Source: Deltaproteobacteria bacterium
GTDB taxonomy: Bacteria > Desulfobacterota > Binatia > UBA1149 > JAJCZL01
Direction of reading: 5' to 3'
DNA length: 64,000 nt
NCBI GenBank assembly: GCA_029262415.1
Contig: JAJCZL010000012.1
Location: 17,358 to 81,357, forward strand
Below are positions 42,891 through 52,716 of the stretch, piece by piece. The position numbers and the translations under genes are program-made. A model generated the notes under the pieces. It had not been told where the DNA came from and did not search any database. It worked only from the letters and a program-made list of their open reading frames with translations. Each line of letters begins with the position of its first letter. The stretch's first letter is position 1.

Positions 42891-44705
42891 CTACGGCCCC
42901 GTGGCTTTGAACTGCTTAGCGTCATTCTTGCTCGCTACCGCGAAAGGTACTTCCCAACAGGACACACTACCGTCGTCGACCACGAATTGCGCAGTTACGG
43001 TGGTCGTCAGCGGTAAACTAGGAGCACTGAAGTTTGCGCCGGTCGCCTTCACCTGAACACGGGTCCTACCCGCTGTACCGTCGCCCTTGAGCTTGACCTG
43101 CTGGATTCCATCGGGCGTCCCGCTGTTGTCCTTGAATCTGAAACCCGTGCTGCCAATCGCCTTCCAGCACGGCTTGCTTGCGCACGTTCCGCCCGGCAAC
43201 ACGGCAGCCTCGACCCGCGGCTGCGGGTTGGCCGAGTCGTCCCATATGCACAAGCGATAGTCGGCCGAACCGTTCACGGGATCGGAAAACTCTGTAATCT
43301 GAGTGGCATCGCCCCTCTTGTAGCTGAACTTGAGCCGACTCTTGCTTGGGTTGCTTGCCTTCAGCTTGATCTTCAGCTGCGACGCGCCGGCTGGGCTTCC
43401 CTTGCACCCAACAATTGGGACGTCGCCACAGAGACTAATCGGCAATGTCGTGGTTGTCGTGGTTGGCGGTATCGTCGTTGTCGTTGTTCCGGGAAGCGGC
43501 TCAGCCAAGCGCTGGTCTACCCAATCTACGATAGCCTGGTTGTAGTCGCCGCCGCCGTCGAGTTGATCCCCCGGCGGATCGGCCCGGGTGTAGGGGTACT
43601 TGGACGGCGAGTGAAGGTTGCAGGCCCCCGGGGTGGTGTTCCCCACATCGTTCACGCACACCTCCACACTGACCGAGCGCCCGGCACCACCCGGCGGGTC
43701 GGCCGCGATGGCATCCCGATAGGGGCCGTGCTCGTGCGCGCAGCCCGGCTCGGTGTAAGGATTGCCCAAATCGTCGGTGTAGTTCTGGACCGCCGAACCG
43801 CAACAAGCCGGATCTCCTGTATTCCACAGGTGGTAGATAGGAACGCTAATCAACCCGGTCGAGACGATATCTTCGGGATACAGTTCCGAGGATGCCAGGG
43901 GGCCGATCTTGGGCAGCAGAAGAGCCCTATCGTATGGAAAGGGCATGCAGAATAGATCGGCGTTATCGTTTATTCCACGCCCCATCACATGGGAATCCGA
44001 CACGATGCCCGACAGGAGCACGCCTTCGCGCTCGAAAGAGTACGCAACGCCAAAGCTGCCGATCGACCCGGCTGAGGTTCCGTGCAGAAAGACGTGGGAT
44101 GTAGCAACACGATTGTACGTGAAGGCAATGGCCGCCTTGGTGGCCAGCAGTCCATCGGCCGCACGGGTCTGGCCGTTCTCATCGGGGGAGTTGGGGTTGT
44201 TCAGATCCGGTATGCCCACACCGGAGTACACATCGTGATCGCAAAGCGAGGGCAGCAGGAAACGAAAACCGGCAGAATGGCCGAGCACCTTAGCCACCAA
44301 ACCACCCTCTCCCATTAGGTTGGTCAGCTTGGTGATGCTCTCCTGGTTGTTCGCGCCAAGGAATTCGATGGGTACGTACTCCCCCAGCTCGTTGAAGGCC
44401 CCCACTCCACCTCCGTGCATGCGCACCCACAAGGGCCTCTCGGTGGTCAGAGGTAGCCCGTCGGAGTATACGATGAGGAAGGTCTGGTAGCCGCTGCGGC
44501 CACAGGTGTAGGCGCGGTTCTCGTAGTACTCGCCGGTGTAGCCCTGATCGCTCACCGTACTCACCAGGACAATCTGACTGGTCGAGTAAGGATCGTCGAT
44601 GCTGTGCCCTCCCCATGGGTCCGGTACCGCCTCCGCGTCGCCGATGAGCACAAAAGTAGCGACACACATCGCCAGGAATAATCCAGACAAAACAGGAGTG
44701 CGCAT
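42891..44705 (-). CDS. secreted alpha/beta-hydrolase-like enzyme with Thr-rich linker and conserved-looking C-terminal module
   Basis: Signal peptide; VFLHGTSAGSIGSFGVAYSF (GxSxG); GTTTTTIPPTTTTTTLP linker; Cys-containing beta-rich tail. Confidence 0.7.
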   Translation of the reverse strand: MRTPVLSGLFLAMCVATFVLIGDAEAVPDPWGGHSIDDPYSTSQIVLVSTVSDQGYTGEYYENRAYTCGRSGYQTFLIVYSDGLPLTTERPLWVRMHGGGVGAFNELGEYVPIEFLGANNQESITKLTNLMGEGGLVAKVLGHSAGFRFLLPSLCDHDVYSGVGIPDLNNPNSPDENGQTRAADGLLATKAAIAFTYNRVATSHVFLHGTSAGSIGSFGVAYSFEREGVLLSGIVSDSHVMGRGINDNADLFCMPFPYDRALLLPKIGPLASSELYPEDIVSTGLISVPIYHLWNTGDPACCGSAVQNYTDDLGNPYTEPGCAHEHGPYRDAIAADPPGGAGRSVSVEVCVNDVGNTTPGACNLHSPSKYPYTRADPPGDQLDGGGDYNQAIVDWVDQRLAEPLPGTTTTTIPPTTTTTTLPISLCGDVPIVGCKGSPAGASQLKIKLKASNPSKSRLKFSYKRGDATQITEFSDPVNGSADYRLCIWDDSANPQPRVEAAVLPGGTCASKPCWKAIGSTGFRFKDNSGTPDGIQQVKLKGDGTAGRTRVQVKATGANFSAPSLPLTTTVTAQFVVDDGSVSCWEVPFAVASKNDAKQFKATGP

Positions 44706-44998
44706 TTTTCAACGGTAGCACACGGCCAGCGGATAGTAAGGATGCGCCATCGCGCATAGATTCACTGAGGATCTGTCCGGGCCATCCGCTGTGGGCCATC
44801 CCCCCGTCTGCGCCAAGTCTCGACGGCGTGATCGCTCCCGCCGTCTACTACAGCAGGCCGCGCACGGATGGTCTTGTCGGTGCCTCCCGCGCACGGGTTG
44901 GTGACAGTTAGGCGCGGTAGTCTCTCGACAGGGCCCACTTGCCTGTGCCCATAATTCAACTGCGCTGGTCGGCTATGCTGGGGCATCCAGGGGAACAC

Positions 44999-47710
44999 TT
45001 GAAGCTTTATCTTAAAACGCTTGTCGCTATCGGTCTGTCCGTATCCGCCCTGGCTTTGGCCCCAACTCTAGTCAAGGCCCAGGCGCTCAGCCGCGACCAG
45101 CAGCTTTGCACGAGGGCCTTTGACAAGGACTTCGCCAAGACCGTTGGTGCCCACGCCAAGGTCGTCTCCTCTTGTATGAAGAACTTCGCTAAGGGGCGGC
45201 TGGTTGGCAGTGCCCAGGCCTGCCTCGGTAGCGACAGCCGTGGCAAGTTTAGCGCGGCCAAGCACAAGGCGGCGCGCGACTACGCCCAGCTGTGTAGCGG
45301 CACGGGTTCTGATGGTGGTGCGCTGCTTGCGCCCTATGGCGTGGGATTGCCTGGCCGGGCGGCTCTGGCGGCGAGCACTCTAGGTGCTGAGCTTGCCGCG
45401 CGGATGTTCGGTGCGGATCTAGACCTGGCCTTGGTCACCGGGGCCGCCGACAAAGCTACTTCGCGTTGCCAGCAGAGCGTGGCCAAGGATGCCGGCAAGT
45501 GCCGTAAGGCCAAGCTCAAGGCCTACCACCGCTGCAAGGCCAAGGGCTTGAAGGGTGGCTCGATCACTGGCGCCTCGGGCCTAGAGGCGTGTATTGGAGA
45601 TGACGCCAAGGGCAAGGTCGCGCGGGCCTGCGGGGCAAACAGTCGCCTGGCCAAAGACGTTACCCAGAGATGCGCGGGCGTAAATCTCGTCCAGGCCTTT
45701 CCCGCCTGCACCACGCCCGACCTCTACACCTGCGTAGAACGCGAAGTCGAGTGCATGGCCTGCTTGGCCATTGATGAGGCCGACGACCTCAATCGCGATT
45801 GCGACCTGTTCGATGACGGACTCGCCAACGCCAGCTGCTCGCCGTTGGATCTTCCCGGCCGCGGCCCCTGGCCGATGACGCCGGTGAGCGTGTTCACGAT
45901 GTCGAGCGTCTATCCCCAACACGCAGCCGGTGCGACTTACTTCTCGGGTAAGAAGAATCAGAATTTTACTGCGGCGCAAGACGTCTGGTTCGGAGGGTTT
46001 TTTGTGCCGGCGGGGACCACCGTGAAGCTCAGTGAGTATTCAAATACCTGCGACACGCTGCCCTGTATCAGTCTCCAGCCGCTCGGCGACGAGCCGCTCG
46101 ATAGTGCCGATGCCGCGGCTTTTAACCAAGCGGTACTTGATAAGAGCGATGGTACCGTGAGCCGTCTGGATATCTCGCAGTACTTGGGCCAGCCGGGCGC
46201 CTCGACCAGGTGGGTGATGCGCTGGAGTGAGCTTTCCGACGAAGTACCGCCGGGCGCAGCCGAAGCGATTGCGTTGATGAGAGCGGCCAACTTGAAGCTG
46301 ATGCCGACGATTTCCGCCGATCGTGTCGATCTGCGCCATCCGGATTTTCCTCTCAGCGCCGGAGGGCCCTGTATTCTCTATGATTTTACCGACACCTTCG
46401 ATGAGCGCTTCGGTTACAGCAAGCTCTACTTCGACTGGGTTACCGGTTTGTTGAACCTTTATGGTGATGTGTTGGCGGTGCTCAACATAGAGAACGAAGT
46501 AGACCAAGACGGCAACACCTGGTGTGAACCGCTGGGCGTAAGAGACGGCTACGCCAAGATGGTGATAACCGCCAAGTATGCCGTGCGCCAGGCCGGCTCG
46601 TCGACGAGGATAACCGACAGCGGCATGATGGGTGTCAGCTGGGCGCGCATGGCCTTCGTCGACCTGATGGAGCAGCGCCAAGCCATCGTTCAAGCCGGCG
46701 GCACACCGCCGGCGGCTTTGGACGCTGAGATCCTCGAGCTCGGCTCGCAGTTCCAGACGACGATTCCGGTGACCGACACTGGCGATGTCGACTGGCCTGT
46801 CATCAATGCCGCGCTGACCGATATCGAGTCAATCTCCTATGTAACAAACGCTCGCGAAATAATTCGCCTGCTAAACTCCGAGGTCATTGATCCCGATCTA
46901 GGCGAGCCGGCGGTGGATGTATTCAACTTCCATCACCACAATGCCTCGGGGGCCGTGCCATCGATTGTCAACTATGTTCGCAAGGTCTTTGCCAAAGGCG
47001 GAGAGCCGTTGATCAACAACGAGATGGGGCTGGTCAGAAGAAGCGTCTTCCCCAAGACCCTGGCTGCCGGCAACACCGAGATTCTAAATAGAACCCAGTT
47101 CGTTCCGATAACGAGTCTGACTCTAAACGGCGAGGTAGAGCAGACCGGCGGCGTCACTGCCTTGGGTCGTTTCGGACCGATGACACGTCAGCGCGAGATC
47201 GCCACCGCGGAGTTGGCAAAGAAGCTCGTCATCCATTTCGGCAACGGAGTAAAGACGGCTACGTACTTCGGGTTCAACGGTGGATCCACCAACGACGCCT
47301 ACACCCAAACGGCAACAGCGGGGGTAGATGGTGCGACCCAGGATCAGTACTTCCGTCTGGGCGACATGAACTACTCTTCTGTGCTTTCTAACGACCACCT
47401 GCCCGTGGCTTCCAACTTCCGTGCCCTGCTCAACCTAAAAGACCTGTTCGACTCGCCAGTGCTGTCGAGCACCCACGCTGTAGCCGGCCTGTTGGAGAGC
47501 TATGAGCTGACTCTCGTCGACAAGAGAGTTGTCGCGGGATGGGTGCCTTCATACCAGGCCAACATCGGCCAGAGCGTGCAACTGAACGTTGCCGCTGAGA
47601 TCGCGGCTGGCTGCAGCTTCTACGATCTCGAGGGCTTCGACGTCGTCCCCGACGCTCAAAATGAGGTTACGATCGGCATGGCTCCGGCGTTCTACGTGTG
47701 CCCGCTTTAA
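44999..47710 (+). CDS. secreted protein: Cys-rich duplicated N-terminal module + glycoside hydrolase clan-A-like domain
   Basis: TTG start 44999 after AGGGG; signal peptide to VKAQA; CX..DFAK..C repeats; VLNIENEVD and LINNEMGL glutamate motifs. Confidence 0.6.
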   Translation: MKLYLKTLVAIGLSVSALALAPTLVKAQALSRDQQLCTRAFDKDFAKTVGAHAKVVSSCMKNFAKGRLVGSAQACLGSDSRGKFSAAKHKAARDYAQLCSGTGSDGGALLAPYGVGLPGRAALAASTLGAELAARMFGADLDLALVTGAADKATSRCQQSVAKDAGKCRKAKLKAYHRCKAKGLKGGSITGASGLEACIGDDAKGKVARACGANSRLAKDVTQRCAGVNLVQAFPACTTPDLYTCVEREVECMACLAIDEADDLNRDCDLFDDGLANASCSPLDLPGRGPWPMTPVSVFTMSSVYPQHAAGATYFSGKKNQNFTAAQDVWFGGFFVPAGTTVKLSEYSNTCDTLPCISLQPLGDEPLDSADAAAFNQAVLDKSDGTVSRLDISQYLGQPGASTRWVMRWSELSDEVPPGAAEAIALMRAANLKLMPTISADRVDLRHPDFPLSAGGPCILYDFTDTFDERFGYSKLYFDWVTGLLNLYGDVLAVLNIENEVDQDGNTWCEPLGVRDGYAKMVITAKYAVRQAGSSTRITDSGMMGVSWARMAFVDLMEQRQAIVQAGGTPPAALDAEILELGSQFQTTIPVTDTGDVDWPVINAALTDIESISYVTNAREIIRLLNSEVIDPDLGEPAVDVFNFHHHNASGAVPSIVNYVRKVFAKGGEPLINNEMGLVRRSVFPKTLAAGNTEILNRTQFVPITSLTLNGEVEQTGGVTALGRFGPMTRQREIATAELAKKLVIHFGNGVKTATYFGFNGGSTNDAYTQTATAGVDGATQDQYFRLGDMNYSSVLSNDHLPVASNFRALLNLKDLFDSPVLSSTHAVAGLLESYELTLVDKRVVAGWVPSYQANIGQSVQLNVAAEIAAGCSFYDLEGFDVVPDAQNEVTIGMAPAFYVCPL

Positions 47711-47889: not shown

Positions 47890-49599
47890 TCAGATCCACA
47901 AACCCCAGCTTCCGGTGCTGAGCACGTAGGCGGCCAGTAGTGCGTTGGTGGTGGCGTGCGCGAGCACAGCATCGCTGAGTTCGCCGCGTCTGCGGGCCGC
48001 AAGCCCGTAGACGATGCCGGCCAGCGTGCCGGCCAGGAGCCGCTGGTGCATTGCGCCGAACAGTAGCGAAGAAACCACAAGTCCGATCCATGTAATCCGG
48101 CGCAGTGGCAAGCTCTGAAAGTCGACGGAGCTGAGCCGACGGCTGAGGTAGCCGCGGAACGCGAGTTCTTCGGCCACCGGAACCGTGAGCGTCGTGCCCA
48201 GGACTCGGAAGGCCAGCCAGGCGAAGGCCAGGCCGGTGGGTAGCTCGCCGAGGGGCGCGGGCAGTGCCGTGGCTTGGGCCCCGACGGGTAACGGCTCGAG
48301 TGCCAGCCAGAGCGCGAACACCGCGACGCCGCCGGCGACGGCGTGCCAGGACCAAGTCCAACGGAGTTCGCGGTAGGCCCGACGAAACACCCATAGGCAG
48401 CCGACCACGGCGCAGAACCTGAGTGGATACAACAGATCGAAGTTGCTGGTCGATACGCTACCGGCAAGCAGTGCGGTGGCCATGATAGCGAGCAATGGAA
48501 GTAAGTAGGCTGCCGTGGGGTCGTCGCGCAGCGCGACGCGAACCTTGTGTTCGCGCGTCTCGACGCATGGCTCCTTCTTGTGGAAGAAGCTCGAACGATG
48601 GCAGGCCCACGCAAGCGAAAGCGCGATCGCCGAGAACAGCAGCGAGCCGACGTAAGAGTGAAAGCCGCCGCGCGCGATGGCGGGCGATAGCGAGCTTCCG
48701 ACCACCACCAGAGCGGTTATTCTCGCGATGTTGGCGAGCCATACCGCCGCCGTTGCTACTGGGATCAGAAGCAGAGCGTGCGGGAAGCGCAGAGTGTCGC
48801 GGAACGTCCACAGGAAGACGCCGAGAAACACCCAGATCATCCCGATCCCTTGGTATCCCGAGCATTCAGGTGCGATGGTCACCCAGAAGCGTTCCGTTCC
48901 GACGACAAACCCAGCCGGCTTTATCAGCGCGTCGGCGGCGATCATCGAGAGCAATGCGTTTACGCCCGTCAGGGTGGCATCGCGGAGCGGCTCCCAAAGC
49001 GCTGCGGTAAGGGTTCCCGCGCCCCAGGCTGCCGCGCCGACGACAGCCGCCAACAAGAGCAGCTGGCCCGTGGCGCGCAGCACGATGGGAGTGATTGAAG
49101 CGGGTAGCGCAGCGGCGGCCAGGAATGCGGGAACCGCAAGGCCGGTGAGCGCCCACGCTACCACCATCGCTGCCGAGGCGGAGGCCGATCCTTCGAAGAT
49201 CGCACGAGTGAGCAGTGCGAACGCGACGAGTGCGGCAAAGTTGCCCACCAGCAACGGCCAGGTAGATCGAAACTGATGGGGAGTGCCCGATGCCCTGCGC
49301 AACTCGGTAAGCAGGCGTTGCCCGCCGATCAGGGCGGCGGCCGTTGCCGTTGCGATGACCAGCTGCGGGACAACGCCGGCGTAGGCGAGCAGACCGTTCC
49401 ACCACGGCCCCCCGACTTGGCTGATTAGGGTGGCATCGAAACGGATGCCGAGAACGATCCCCTCGAGCACAAGCAGGGAGCCGAGTAGGCAACAGCGCAC
49501 CGTAGCGGATCTGCAGTGTGCTGTGCGTTGCAAGGGCCCGCCGGGCGGCACGCGTGATAAGGGGATAGATCGCCGATCAGCGAGCGCGGCGCCGATCAC
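47890..49599 (-). CDS. xrtE: exosortase E/CPBP protease fusion (VPEID-CTERM system)
   Basis: Exosortase Cys/Arg/His: APECSGYQGIGMIW, LANIARI, GGFHSYVG; CPBP motifs EELAFRGYLSRRL, FGAMHQRLLAG, LAHATTNALLA. Confidence 0.9.
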   Translation of the reverse strand: MIGAALADRRSIPLSRVPPGGPLQRTAHCRSATVRCCLLGSLLVLEGIVLGIRFDATLISQVGGPWWNGLLAYAGVVPQLVIATATAAALIGGQRLLTELRRASGTPHQFRSTWPLLVGNFAALVAFALLTRAIFEGSASASAAMVVAWALTGLAVPAFLAAAALPASITPIVLRATGQLLLLAAVVGAAAWGAGTLTAALWEPLRDATLTGVNALLSMIAADALIKPAGFVVGTERFWVTIAPECSGYQGIGMIWVFLGVFLWTFRDTLRFPHALLLIPVATAAVWLANIARITALVVVGSSLSPAIARGGFHSYVGSLLFSAIALSLAWACHRSSFFHKKEPCVETREHKVRVALRDDPTAAYLLPLLAIMATALLAGSVSTSNFDLLYPLRFCAVVGCLWVFRRAYRELRWTWSWHAVAGGVAVFALWLALEPLPVGAQATALPAPLGELPTGLAFAWLAFRVLGTTLTVPVAEELAFRGYLSRRLSSVDFQSLPLRRITWIGLVVSSLLFGAMHQRLLAGTLAGIVYGLAARRRGELSDAVLAHATTNALLAAYVLSTGSWGLWI

Positions 49600-49849
49600 G
49601 AAGGATGGTCAAGCCGCCGACAACCAACCCGATGGCGAGTACCGCCGTGCTCGGATCGATTTCGGGAACGCTGTTGCCGCCGTCGTTGTGGCTTGTGTCC
49701 TCGTAGCCGCGGCTGTTGCTATCGCACCAAAAGAAACACCACCAGTTATCCGCATCGGCTGCGGCGGTGCTCGGCGTTGCGGTTAGCAAGAGCAGGGCGG
49801 TCGCCAGCATGATCGGGAACTGTAGAAGGGGCCGTAGTCTTTTCTTCAT
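49577..49849 (-). CDS. VPEID-CTERM sorting-domain protein, predicted substrate of the adjacent exosortase
   Basis: Signal peptide + DADNWWCFFWCDSNSRGYEDTSHNDGGNS + VPEIDPSTAVLAIGLVVGGLTILRDRRRAR. Confidence 0.9.
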   Translation of the reverse strand: MKKRLRPLLQFPIMLATALLLLTATPSTAAADADNWWCFFWCDSNSRGYEDTSHNDGGNSVPEIDPSTAVLAIGLVVGGLTILRDRRRAR

Positions 49850-50347
49850 GTTAAATCTCTGTGCCTGGCGCTCGATAGCACCAAACCTAATCGGGTTTGG
49901 ATTCTACTCTCCACCGGTAGTGTGTGGCCGCATTGAGGGATCTGTCAACCACTCCGCCGGACCCGTGACTGTGTGGCGCAGTCCCGCAAAACCCTTAGTT
50001 TACCGGAACAGTCGGCTCGGTTCCCAAGACTGCGGAGGATCGCGGCGAGAGAAAATTTACCTGTCGCACATCCAATCGCAGAGCGTCTTCCGTGTAGTTG
50101 TTTATACGCCCGATCCGCGTGTCACGTCGCGTGGCCCACCGCGCTCACGGCGGCGGAAAGGTCGTGAGTATGTCACTGACCGGTTGGTTCACATCCGCAG
50201 CGACCGCAGCGGCGTTACCCAACACGGCACAGGCATTGCGAGATGGGAATGCCAAGCTTGCAGAAGCTCGCTGCATGACGATCCGAATCTCACAAGAACG
50301 TTTGCGCTGATTTCGATTCATGTACCAACACCCGCTGTTTCCAAGCA

Positions 50348-51003: not shown

Positions 51004-51136
51004 CTACAAGGCGTCGATGGGGTTTTGCGCGCCACGACTGCCGCGCTTGAGCACGTGTGTGTAGACCATCGTTGTTTGTACATCCTTAGTGGCCGAGGAG
51101 TTCCTGAACCGTGCGGATATCGTATCCCGCCTCCTG
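51004..51136 (-). pseudogene. integron-integrase-like tyrosine recombinase C-terminal remnant with frameshift
   Basis: QEAGYDIRTVQELLGH + (1-nt insertion) + KDVQTTMVYTHVLKRGSRGAQNPIDAL*. Confidence 0.75.
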
Positions 51137-51203
51137 TCCTTCCTCAAAACCTCATCCACTGACAATTGAGCCGCGAGTCCGTCGTAGCGATGGTGCAGTA
51201 GGG

Positions 51204-51405: not shown

Positions 51406-52716
51406 ATGCGGAAATCCATCGCCGCCGCCTGCGCCGCGGCTCTGTTCATCACCGCTCATGCCGACGCCCACGATGACGTCACCCATCGCTTCGACTCCGT
51501 AGACCAGGGCACTGCCTACGTGACCAGGCTACGTAGTTCCGGCGCCAGTGCCGGTTCGCTGGAACTCGACGTCGAGATCTTCGGCCGCGGGATGCGCCTG
51601 CTTATCGAGCCGGTCAACGTATACGCCCCCGGTGCTCGCGTCGTGCGGGTCGGGGAGGATGGAGAGAGCGCCGACCCGGTTCGCGCCGCTACCTACCGTG
51701 GCAGCGTCGCGAATGAGACCGGATCGCTGGTCGCTGTAAGTTTCGACGGCACGCACTTGGAGGGCTTGGTGCTCAGCGGGAGCGATGTGTTCTTCTTGTC
51801 GCCGGTCGGCTCAGGAACTCATAGCGCATTGCGTGCCGATGCTGGCGCGCTCGGGTTCTCGTCGGCACCGAGGAGCGCTCGGGCGACGGGGCCGAGCCGT
51901 TTGCTTGAGGTAGCCGCCGTCGGTGACTTCGAGTTCTTCCAACTACACGGGGTCGGCTCGAACGCCGAGATCGCAACGGTAATGAATCAGGTTGATGCTG
52001 TCTACATTGATCAGTTAGACACGACGGTCAGCGTGATCGCGTCAATGGTCTTCGACACCGCCGCCGATCCGTTCTCAGTTTTCAACACAGGCAACCTCTT
52101 CAACGACTTTCGCAGTACGGCCACAGAATTCGGCGACTGGCGTGCCACGCAGGGCGGTGACATCGCAGGATCGGACATCGCCCACCTGTTCTCTGATAAG
52201 TTCGGCATCAATGCGGGGTTCGCGTTCATCAACACACTTTGCAGTACCTCGCGCGGCGTGGGCGTCTCGACCACCAACTTCCAAAGCCTGCACGCATTGA
52301 TAATCAATCACGAGATCGGCCACAACTTCGGTGCTCCACACGACGGCGAAGCGGGCACGTGTTCGGCGACGCCTCAAAACCAGTTCATCATGTCGCCGGC
52401 CGCCACCGGTCTGACGTTCTCACCGTGCAGTCTCGGCATCATGACCCCAGCCCGTGACCAGGCTCCGTGTATCGGTGCCTTCGTACCGACCACCACCACG
52501 ACGCTGCCGCCCCAGGTCTGCGGCGATGCCACCGGCGATGGGTCCCTCGCAGCAACAGACGCCCTGCTGACCCTACAAACCGGCGTCGGAGCCGGGAGCT
52601 GTGAGCTCTGTGTCTGCGACGTCAACCTCTCGGGTGGTGTCAACGCGACCGACGCGTTGCTCGTACTACAAGGTAGTGTGGGCCAGCAGGTGGGTTTGAT
52701 GTGCATCCAGTGCTGA
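51406..52716 (+). CDS. secreted M12 (reprolysin/adamalysin-like) zinc metallopeptidase with C-terminal dockerin-like repeats
   Basis: Signal peptide; HEIGHNFGAPHD zinc motif; FIMSP Met-turn; TTTTTLPP linker; two Ca-loop repeats (DATGDGSLAATDALLTLQ, CDVNLSGGVNATDALLVLQ). Confidence 0.85.
   Translation: MRKSIAAACAAALFITAHADAHDDVTHRFDSVDQGTAYVTRLRSSGASAGSLELDVEIFGRGMRLLIEPVNVYAPGARVVRVGEDGESADPVRAATYRGSVANETGSLVAVSFDGTHLEGLVLSGSDVFFLSPVGSGTHSALRADAGALGFSSAPRSARATGPSRLLEVAAVGDFEFFQLHGVGSNAEIATVMNQVDAVYIDQLDTTVSVIASMVFDTAADPFSVFNTGNLFNDFRSTATEFGDWRATQGGDIAGSDIAHLFSDKFGINAGFAFINTLCSTSRGVGVSTTNFQSLHALIINHEIGHNFGAPHDGEAGTCSATPQNQFIMSPAATGLTFSPCSLGIMTPARDQAPCIGAFVPTTTTTLPPQVCGDATGDGSLAATDALLTLQTGVGAGSCELCVCDVNLSGGVNATDALLVLQGSVGQQVGLMCIQC

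Follow-up and report, generated by a model that had tools for sequence, protein, structure and literature searches.

An exosortase E/CPBP-protease fusion paired with a small VPEID-CTERM substrate in a deltaproteobacterial genome: a predicted one-enzyme, one-substrate sorting unit

What does an enzyme that joins an exosortase to a membrane protease do with a single substrate of 90 amino acids? The question is raised by two neighbouring genes in a 64,000-nucleotide stretch of contig JAJCZL010000012.1 from a Deltaproteobacteria bacterium (assembly GCA_029262415.1), hereafter called the window. A preliminary description made from the sequence had placed both open reading frames on the minus strand, with the 90-aa gene upstream of the fusion gene, and they were found at the coordinates it gave. 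The features are as follows.

49577..49849, minus strand: VPEID-CTERM substrate gene, 90 aa, comprising signal peptide, mature segment of 29-30 aa and VPEID tail
49757..49849, minus strand: predicted Sec signal peptide, MKKRLRPLLQFPIMLATALLLLTATPSTAAA, cut before DADNWW according to heuristic cleavage scoring
49667..49756, minus strand: mature segment, DADNWWCFFWCDSNSRGYEDTSHNDGGNSV, with the Cys pair C-FFW-C, starting at the heuristic cut site
49580..49666, minus strand: sorting tail, PEIDPSTAVLAIGLVVGGLTILRDRRRAR, composed of recognition motif, membrane helix and basic end, supported by the tail profile
47890..49599, minus strand: XrtE exosortase/CPBP-protease fusion, at most 569 aa, exact start uncertain, from family models, alignment and predicted structure
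48595..49536, minus strand: exosortase half, approximately residues 22-335, triad C246/R293/H314 (PF09721 at 56-332, TIGR04178 at 240-333)
47893..48519, minus strand: CPBP/Rce1-like half, approximately residues 361-569, with E477, E478, R482, H518, H548 and N552 (PF02517 at 461-554, TIGR03008 at 361-568)
49850..50347, minus strand: intergenic region upstream of the pair, in which no promoter or RNA element was recognised

In the window substrate the signal-peptide heuristic used an internal Met as start, with the cut site unchanged. An overlap between the substrate stop codon and the enzyme start had also been proposed, and judged from the sequence it is possible: the first enzyme GTG (49597-49599) would overlap the substrate gene by 23 nt. 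The choice of that codon is less secure, however, since further GTG and TTG codons lie downstream in frame, e.g. the GTG at 49549-49551, and inspection of the sequence revealed no clear Shine-Dalgarno sequence at the enzyme start. Residues 1-30 of the enzyme are of low confidence in the AlphaFold model. No RNA elements were found around the gene pair, and promoter scans upstream of it gave no sigma-70-like site and no sigma-54-like matches above chance level.

The fusion scores 231.1 bits against TIGR04162 (exosortase E/protease, VPEID-CTERM system; cut-off 150) over profile positions 54-515 of 516, which bears out the XrtE/VPEID kind to which it had been assigned. It also exceeds the cut-offs of the CPBP model TIGR03008 (158 bits, cut-off 81) and of TIGR04178 (53 bits, cut-off 23), and matches PF02517 (Rce1-like, 59.6 bits) and PF09721 (exosortase, 37.4 bits). 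The exosortase triad and CPBP motifs reported earlier as intact are present in every residue named and conserved over 57 relatives, in which C246, R293 and H314 and the CPBP residues E477, E478, R482, H518 and H548 are invariant and N552 occurs in at least 90%. The enzyme has the sequence features by which XrtE membership was judged: a score above the TIGR04162 cut-off, the Cys/Arg/His triad and the CPBP motifs EExxxR, H and HxxxN. Neither the AlphaFold model (at E <= 0.001) nor a sequence profile of the enzyme gave a match in the PDB.

Against TIGR04161 (VPEID-CTERM) the window tail reaches 25.0 and 27.7 bits, below the cut-off of 33, and it thus falls outside that model. A leave-one-out profile was built from 51 tails adjoining XrtE genes elsewhere, with the window's own excluded, and against this profile the tail scores 45.1 bits (E 4.6e-13 over the window's six frames), compared with 9.9 bits for the next real ORF and a maximum of 8.9 among 14,010 shuffled segments. 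By this score the tail is of the same kind as those of substrates beside XrtE genes; the substrate also has the N-terminal signal peptide (heuristic) and the co-location with XrtE expected of VPEID-CTERM proteins. Since family models, conserved catalytic residues and the leave-one-out tail score agree, the XrtE-substrate pair is real, and it belongs to a known family with NCBI names. With the exosortase E/VPEID-CTERM system (TIGR04162, TIGR04161) it shares the fusion architecture, the catalytic residues, the tail motif and the gene pair; it differs in its tail being under the TIGR04161 cut-off and in a mature segment that, among the genomes examined, occurs in the host only. The open literature searched mentions neither VPEID nor exosortase E and contains no biochemistry of the family.

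The preliminary description had further proposed that one enzyme serves one peptide, and had suggested a search for other VPEID tails, many of which would have spoken against it; this proved not to be so. A profile search of the host assembly (83 contigs, 97% complete) gave one clear VPEID tail, that of the window substrate, at 49.6 bits, a score somewhat inflated by the presence of the window's own tail in that profile; the next-best match is partial, at 17.7 bits. One exosortase was found, and one protein exceeds the TIGR04162 cut-off. With a single VPEID tail and a single exosortase found in this genome, 'one enzyme, one peptide' therefore stands, and the pair, with its catalytic residues and tail, is at the sequence level the sole such system found there.

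The arrangement of the active sites was predicted from the helices of the AlphaFold model (pLDDT 87, pTM 0.76) together with the positive-inside rule. C246 and H314 are modelled in outer-face loops, R293 near the outer end of its helix and the CPBP residues within the membrane, and the positive-inside loops would place C246 and H314 on the outer face shared with the substrate's VPEID. With VPEID outside, RRRAR inside and the active sites so placed, one enzyme could cut both at the outer end, by its exosortase half, and within the bilayer, by its CPBP half. The events that we infer, covering cleavage, cut order, transfer, acceptor, disulfide and with them the biological role, would run as follows. 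The 90-aa precursor would be exported by Sec, lose its signal peptide and remain tethered to the inner membrane through its C-terminal helix, with the N-terminus outside and RRRAR inside. The exosortase half (Cys246/Arg293/His314, on the periplasmic face) would cleave at or beside VPEID, and by analogy with characterised relatives the ~30-residue peptide would probably be transferred to an amine- or lipid-type acceptor and stay anchored outside. The CPBP glutamic protease half would cut the leftover membrane stub in the bilayer, or may trim the tail first, and a disulfide probably links the two Cys of C-FFW-C. We consider it probable that the pair is a two-gene XrtE/VPEID-CTERM-type unit for C-terminal sorting, one enzyme with one substrate, that works by these steps. 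Its product may be a modified surface peptide or a signal, as the preliminary description suggested. Cleavage with lipid attachment in the ArtA/PGF-CTERM system is one precedent. For the CPBP half an enzymatic precedent is myxosortase, a CPBP enzyme that cleaves MYXO-CTERM (PMC11980579), and for relatives it is either established or has been proposed that exosortases and CPBP enzymes each process such tails (PMC11980579, PMC1569441).

These relatives are nevertheless distinct from the window pair. The XrtA/PEP-CTERM exosortase (EpsH) has in common with it an exosortase half with the Cys/Arg/His triad and a three-part tail, whereas the window has PEID instead of PEP, one small substrate and no adjacent EPS locus; membership was rejected on this motif and on an XrtA model score of 17.2 bits against a cut-off of 208. 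Four EpsH-CAAX protease fusions were noted already in 2006 (PMC1569441). Myxosortase MrtX and MrtJ/JDVT-CTERM are alike in a CPBP half with EExxxR and HxxxN, and MrtJ likewise forms a two-gene enzyme/substrate unit (PMC11980579). The window tail, however, is devoid of their invariant Cys at the cleavage site, and the CPBP half in the window is fused to an exosortase; MYXO-CTERM/JDVT-CTERM membership was rejected since there is no tail Cys and the Mrt models give 34.2 of 100 and 29.4 of 75 bits. The archaeosortase ArtA, whose cleavage of PGF-CTERM with lipid attachment is a precedent (PMC7157517), has a catalytic core homologous to the exosortase half in the window but is archaeal, has no CPBP half and recognises a different motif.

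The acceptor could alternatively be a polysaccharide whose biosynthesis genes lie elsewhere in the genome, to which the peptide would be attached in the style of XrtA/PEP-CTERM; EPS genes are found in the vicinity of 90% of EpsH homologues (PMC1569441). Polysaccharide-export genes are indeed present near 7 clustered loci of relatives and at L064 and L089, flippase genes occur near some members, and on several Rhodobacterales plasmids xrtE lies among flippase, export and glycosyltransferase genes. We nevertheless regard exopolysaccharide-linked sorting as somewhat unlikely, since the window neighbourhood is free of such genes and the immediate neighbours vary between loci, the most frequent family being fatty acid hydroxylase and not EPS. 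The immediate neighbours in the window, a protein with a squalene-hopene-cyclase N-terminal match, a methyltransferase, a reprolysin and RelA/SpoT, point to no pathway, and no acceptor-making gene was found beside the pair in the window, which counts against the sorting model as well.

Across the loci no gene neighbourhood is conserved beyond the pair, except for the fatty acid hydroxylase, the only recurrent neighbour family (7/116 neighbours scanned, 8 loci), which lies directly downstream of XrtE in three gammaproteobacteria. Its positions are L022:11184-11972, L068:2993-3841 and L086:11687-12508, and it is also found near L038, L042, L050, L065 and L074. The best NCBIfam match is the ornithine-lipid hydroxylase OlsE at 78-89 bits, far below the cut-off of 475. 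The association is worth attention because an aminolipid could plausibly serve as the acceptor, and one may speculate that the hydroxylase is linked to a lipid acceptor.

Other genes of the window are recorded here as observations. A 923-aa predicted secreted protein at 44939-47710 (plus strand), convergent with the XrtE gene, has no Pfam or NCBIfam match. Two further predicted secreted proteins, at 42891-44705 (minus strand) and 51406-52716 (plus strand), have a common Thr-rich linker (TTTTTLP...CGD) preceding their C-terminal domains; one is unmatched in Pfam and the other is a reprolysin with a weak dockerin match. A short ORF at 51004-51165 (minus strand), with no Pfam match, by eye resembles the C-terminus of a tyrosine recombinase/integron integrase (TTMVYTHVLKRGSRG).

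The distribution of the system is patchy, with 2/13 genomes of the host's order and 3/395 genomes drawn from the phylum. One scan of bacterial genome contigs yielded 80 named relative loci, in Planctomycetota, Acidobacteriota, Pseudomonadota and 'Deltaproteobacteria'/Myxococcales; a plasmid search added mainly Rhodobacterales cases annotated xrtE, and 0/252 pattern matches in viral contigs encode a relative. Culturable relatives with the same pair include Methylobacter luteus (L028), Terracidiphilus gabretensis (L058), Silvibacterium bohemicum (L063) and Singulisphaera GP187 (L043). In a maximum-likelihood tree the window XrtE groups with L010, L064 and L089 (support 100/98), L010 being a MAG called Deltaproteobacteria DP_19 with an enzyme 52% identical to that of the window, and most other clades follow phyla. 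The L089 record (CAMBZJ010000026.1) is a MAG contig under the title Klebsiella pneumoniae; in view of its place beside the window and L064 it is probably mislabelled. OFTM64, from the host's order, has two XrtE paralogues (L045 and L050) on different contigs and two substrate-tail matches, both away from these paralogues.

The pairing of enzyme and substrate recurs among the relatives. At least one VPEID substrate is present at 66 relative loci, and 74/90 substrates are upstream of XrtE on the same strand, while 9/12 loci lacking an adjacent substrate have one elsewhere in the genome. Each of 35 further genomes has one substrate or more, which is partly so by construction because some of these loci went into the profile, and 22/35 have exactly one, a count to which this does not apply. 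In L064 and L089, near relatives with a conserved enzyme, no substrate was detectable in the genome, which counts against the sorting model. These two genomes would fit a reading in which other substrates of the XrtE half have gone unrecognised and the VPEID protein is in decay or acts purely as an export sensor, and so would the unconserved cargo, which can be unrelated between sister species: the Hydrogenophaga substrates L046 and L082 have 28/29 tail residues in common and unrelated 40-residue cargos. A leftover or decoy role for the small substrate is, however, very unlikely, given that strong purifying selection acts on the tail (Ka 0.02-0.11 vs Ks 0.19-0.50 across eight related substrate pairs), that at least one substrate was found in 44/47 of the relatives' genomes searched and that the host genome offers nothing closer to a second tail than the partial match mentioned above.

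The very small mature segment had been singled out as notable, and here the comparison with relatives led to a different view. Cargo was defined as the residues from the predicted signal-peptide cut to the PE motif, by a simple signal-peptidase heuristic, in 91 predicted substrates located next to relatives of the fusion. Its median size is 15 residues, with at most 10 in 41/91 and at most 5 in 29/91; a small mature segment is typical, and the 30 residues of the window substrate are ordinary in size, many relatives having next to none. The shortest substrates include those of L035, L051, L070 and L079. In the near cargo-less L035 only VIAA stands between MKLLGMALMFVAFASFANA and PEIDPGSAGSAVALLSGALLVIRSRRKK, and some whole substrate proteins are only ~50 aa. 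A bound that is independent of start-codon and cleavage guesses, from the preceding stop codon to PE with the signal peptide included, is at most 30 residues in 7/89 and at most 35 in 12/89. A minority of substrates have cargo of 150-300 aa (L039, L047 and L048), and the planctomycete genome of L049 (G410) contains ~25 VPEID-tail matches, many in larger proteins, versus the usual single small substrate. Near cargo-less substrates are not described in the open literature searched; NCBI family notes and subscription papers may record the small size.

So little cargo could signify that none is delivered, and that two cuts yield a short free peptide or a hydrophobic tail peptide that would be a signal or membrane-active, the CPBP half then being comparable to a protease of pheromones or bacteriocin leaders. 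The 29 substrates with at most five residues, the ~50-aa proteins, the seven within the hard bound and the tail being the conserved part are consistent with this. A recognition signal would predict tail conservation equally, however, the 150-300-aa cargos are as in ordinary sorting, the planctomycete carries its tails on many larger proteins and no receptor gene recurs beside the pair; we therefore find this reading unlikely. Tentatively, XrtE/VPEID as a whole might possibly be mainly a maker of micro-peptides, in which signal peptidase and XrtE would excise peptides of ~3-40 residues, lipid- or glycan-attached or released, that often carry one disulfide or aromatic cluster and change fast between sister species, the window peptide with C-FFW-C being a 30-residue example.

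The preliminary description had suggested testing WWCxxWC for conservation and had named an unconserved mature segment as grounds for refuting its proposal; conservation of neither is seen among the substrates compared. WWCFFWC was encountered in none of the other substrates examined, and the unlinked substrate of the nearest relative (L107, STMDDIARFFGFGSDSDGSS...; enzyme 52% identical) contains neither WWCFFWC nor any Cys, so WWCFFWC was rejected as a conserved motif. Of the two Cys in an aromatic cluster, what persists is a loose recurrence of paired Cys and of aromatics near the mature N-terminus. Among 94 short cargos, 78 have no Cys, 4 have one, 11 two and 1 three; the 11 with exactly two exceed the 4.1 of the null (P 0.0002), and when collapsed to one per lineage there are 7 cargos with two Cys and 3 with one (P 0.002 and 0.0003). 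The pairs include C-IALGT-C (L090), C-NPDSLSG-C (L130) and C-KD-C (L068) besides C-FFW-C in the window. Trp is ~2-fold more common in the first 12 cargo residues than later (5.2% vs 2.3%), and several myxococcal/deltaproteobacterial substrates start with D-x-(D)-x-W or have WW clusters (DASWGSWWTNWW, DSDSWS, DADNWWCFFWC), a pattern that is a lead from few sequences. As paired Cys and N-terminal aromatics recur loosely in unrelated substrates, these features may not be accidental.

The window pair lends itself to testing: it comprises one enzyme and one 90-aa substrate, no second exosortase was found in the genome, and each of the two catalytic sites can be inactivated on its own. Almost cargo-less, fast-changing substrates with paired cysteines may be a new, family-wide pattern. 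The most interesting lead comes from the substrates with next to no cargo, and they raise the question of the enzyme's real purpose. If true, several phyla would have retained a transpeptidase-type enzyme on account of just a few residues; nearly half of the examined substrates are almost empty, which, if real, bears on what exosortases attach, and to what.
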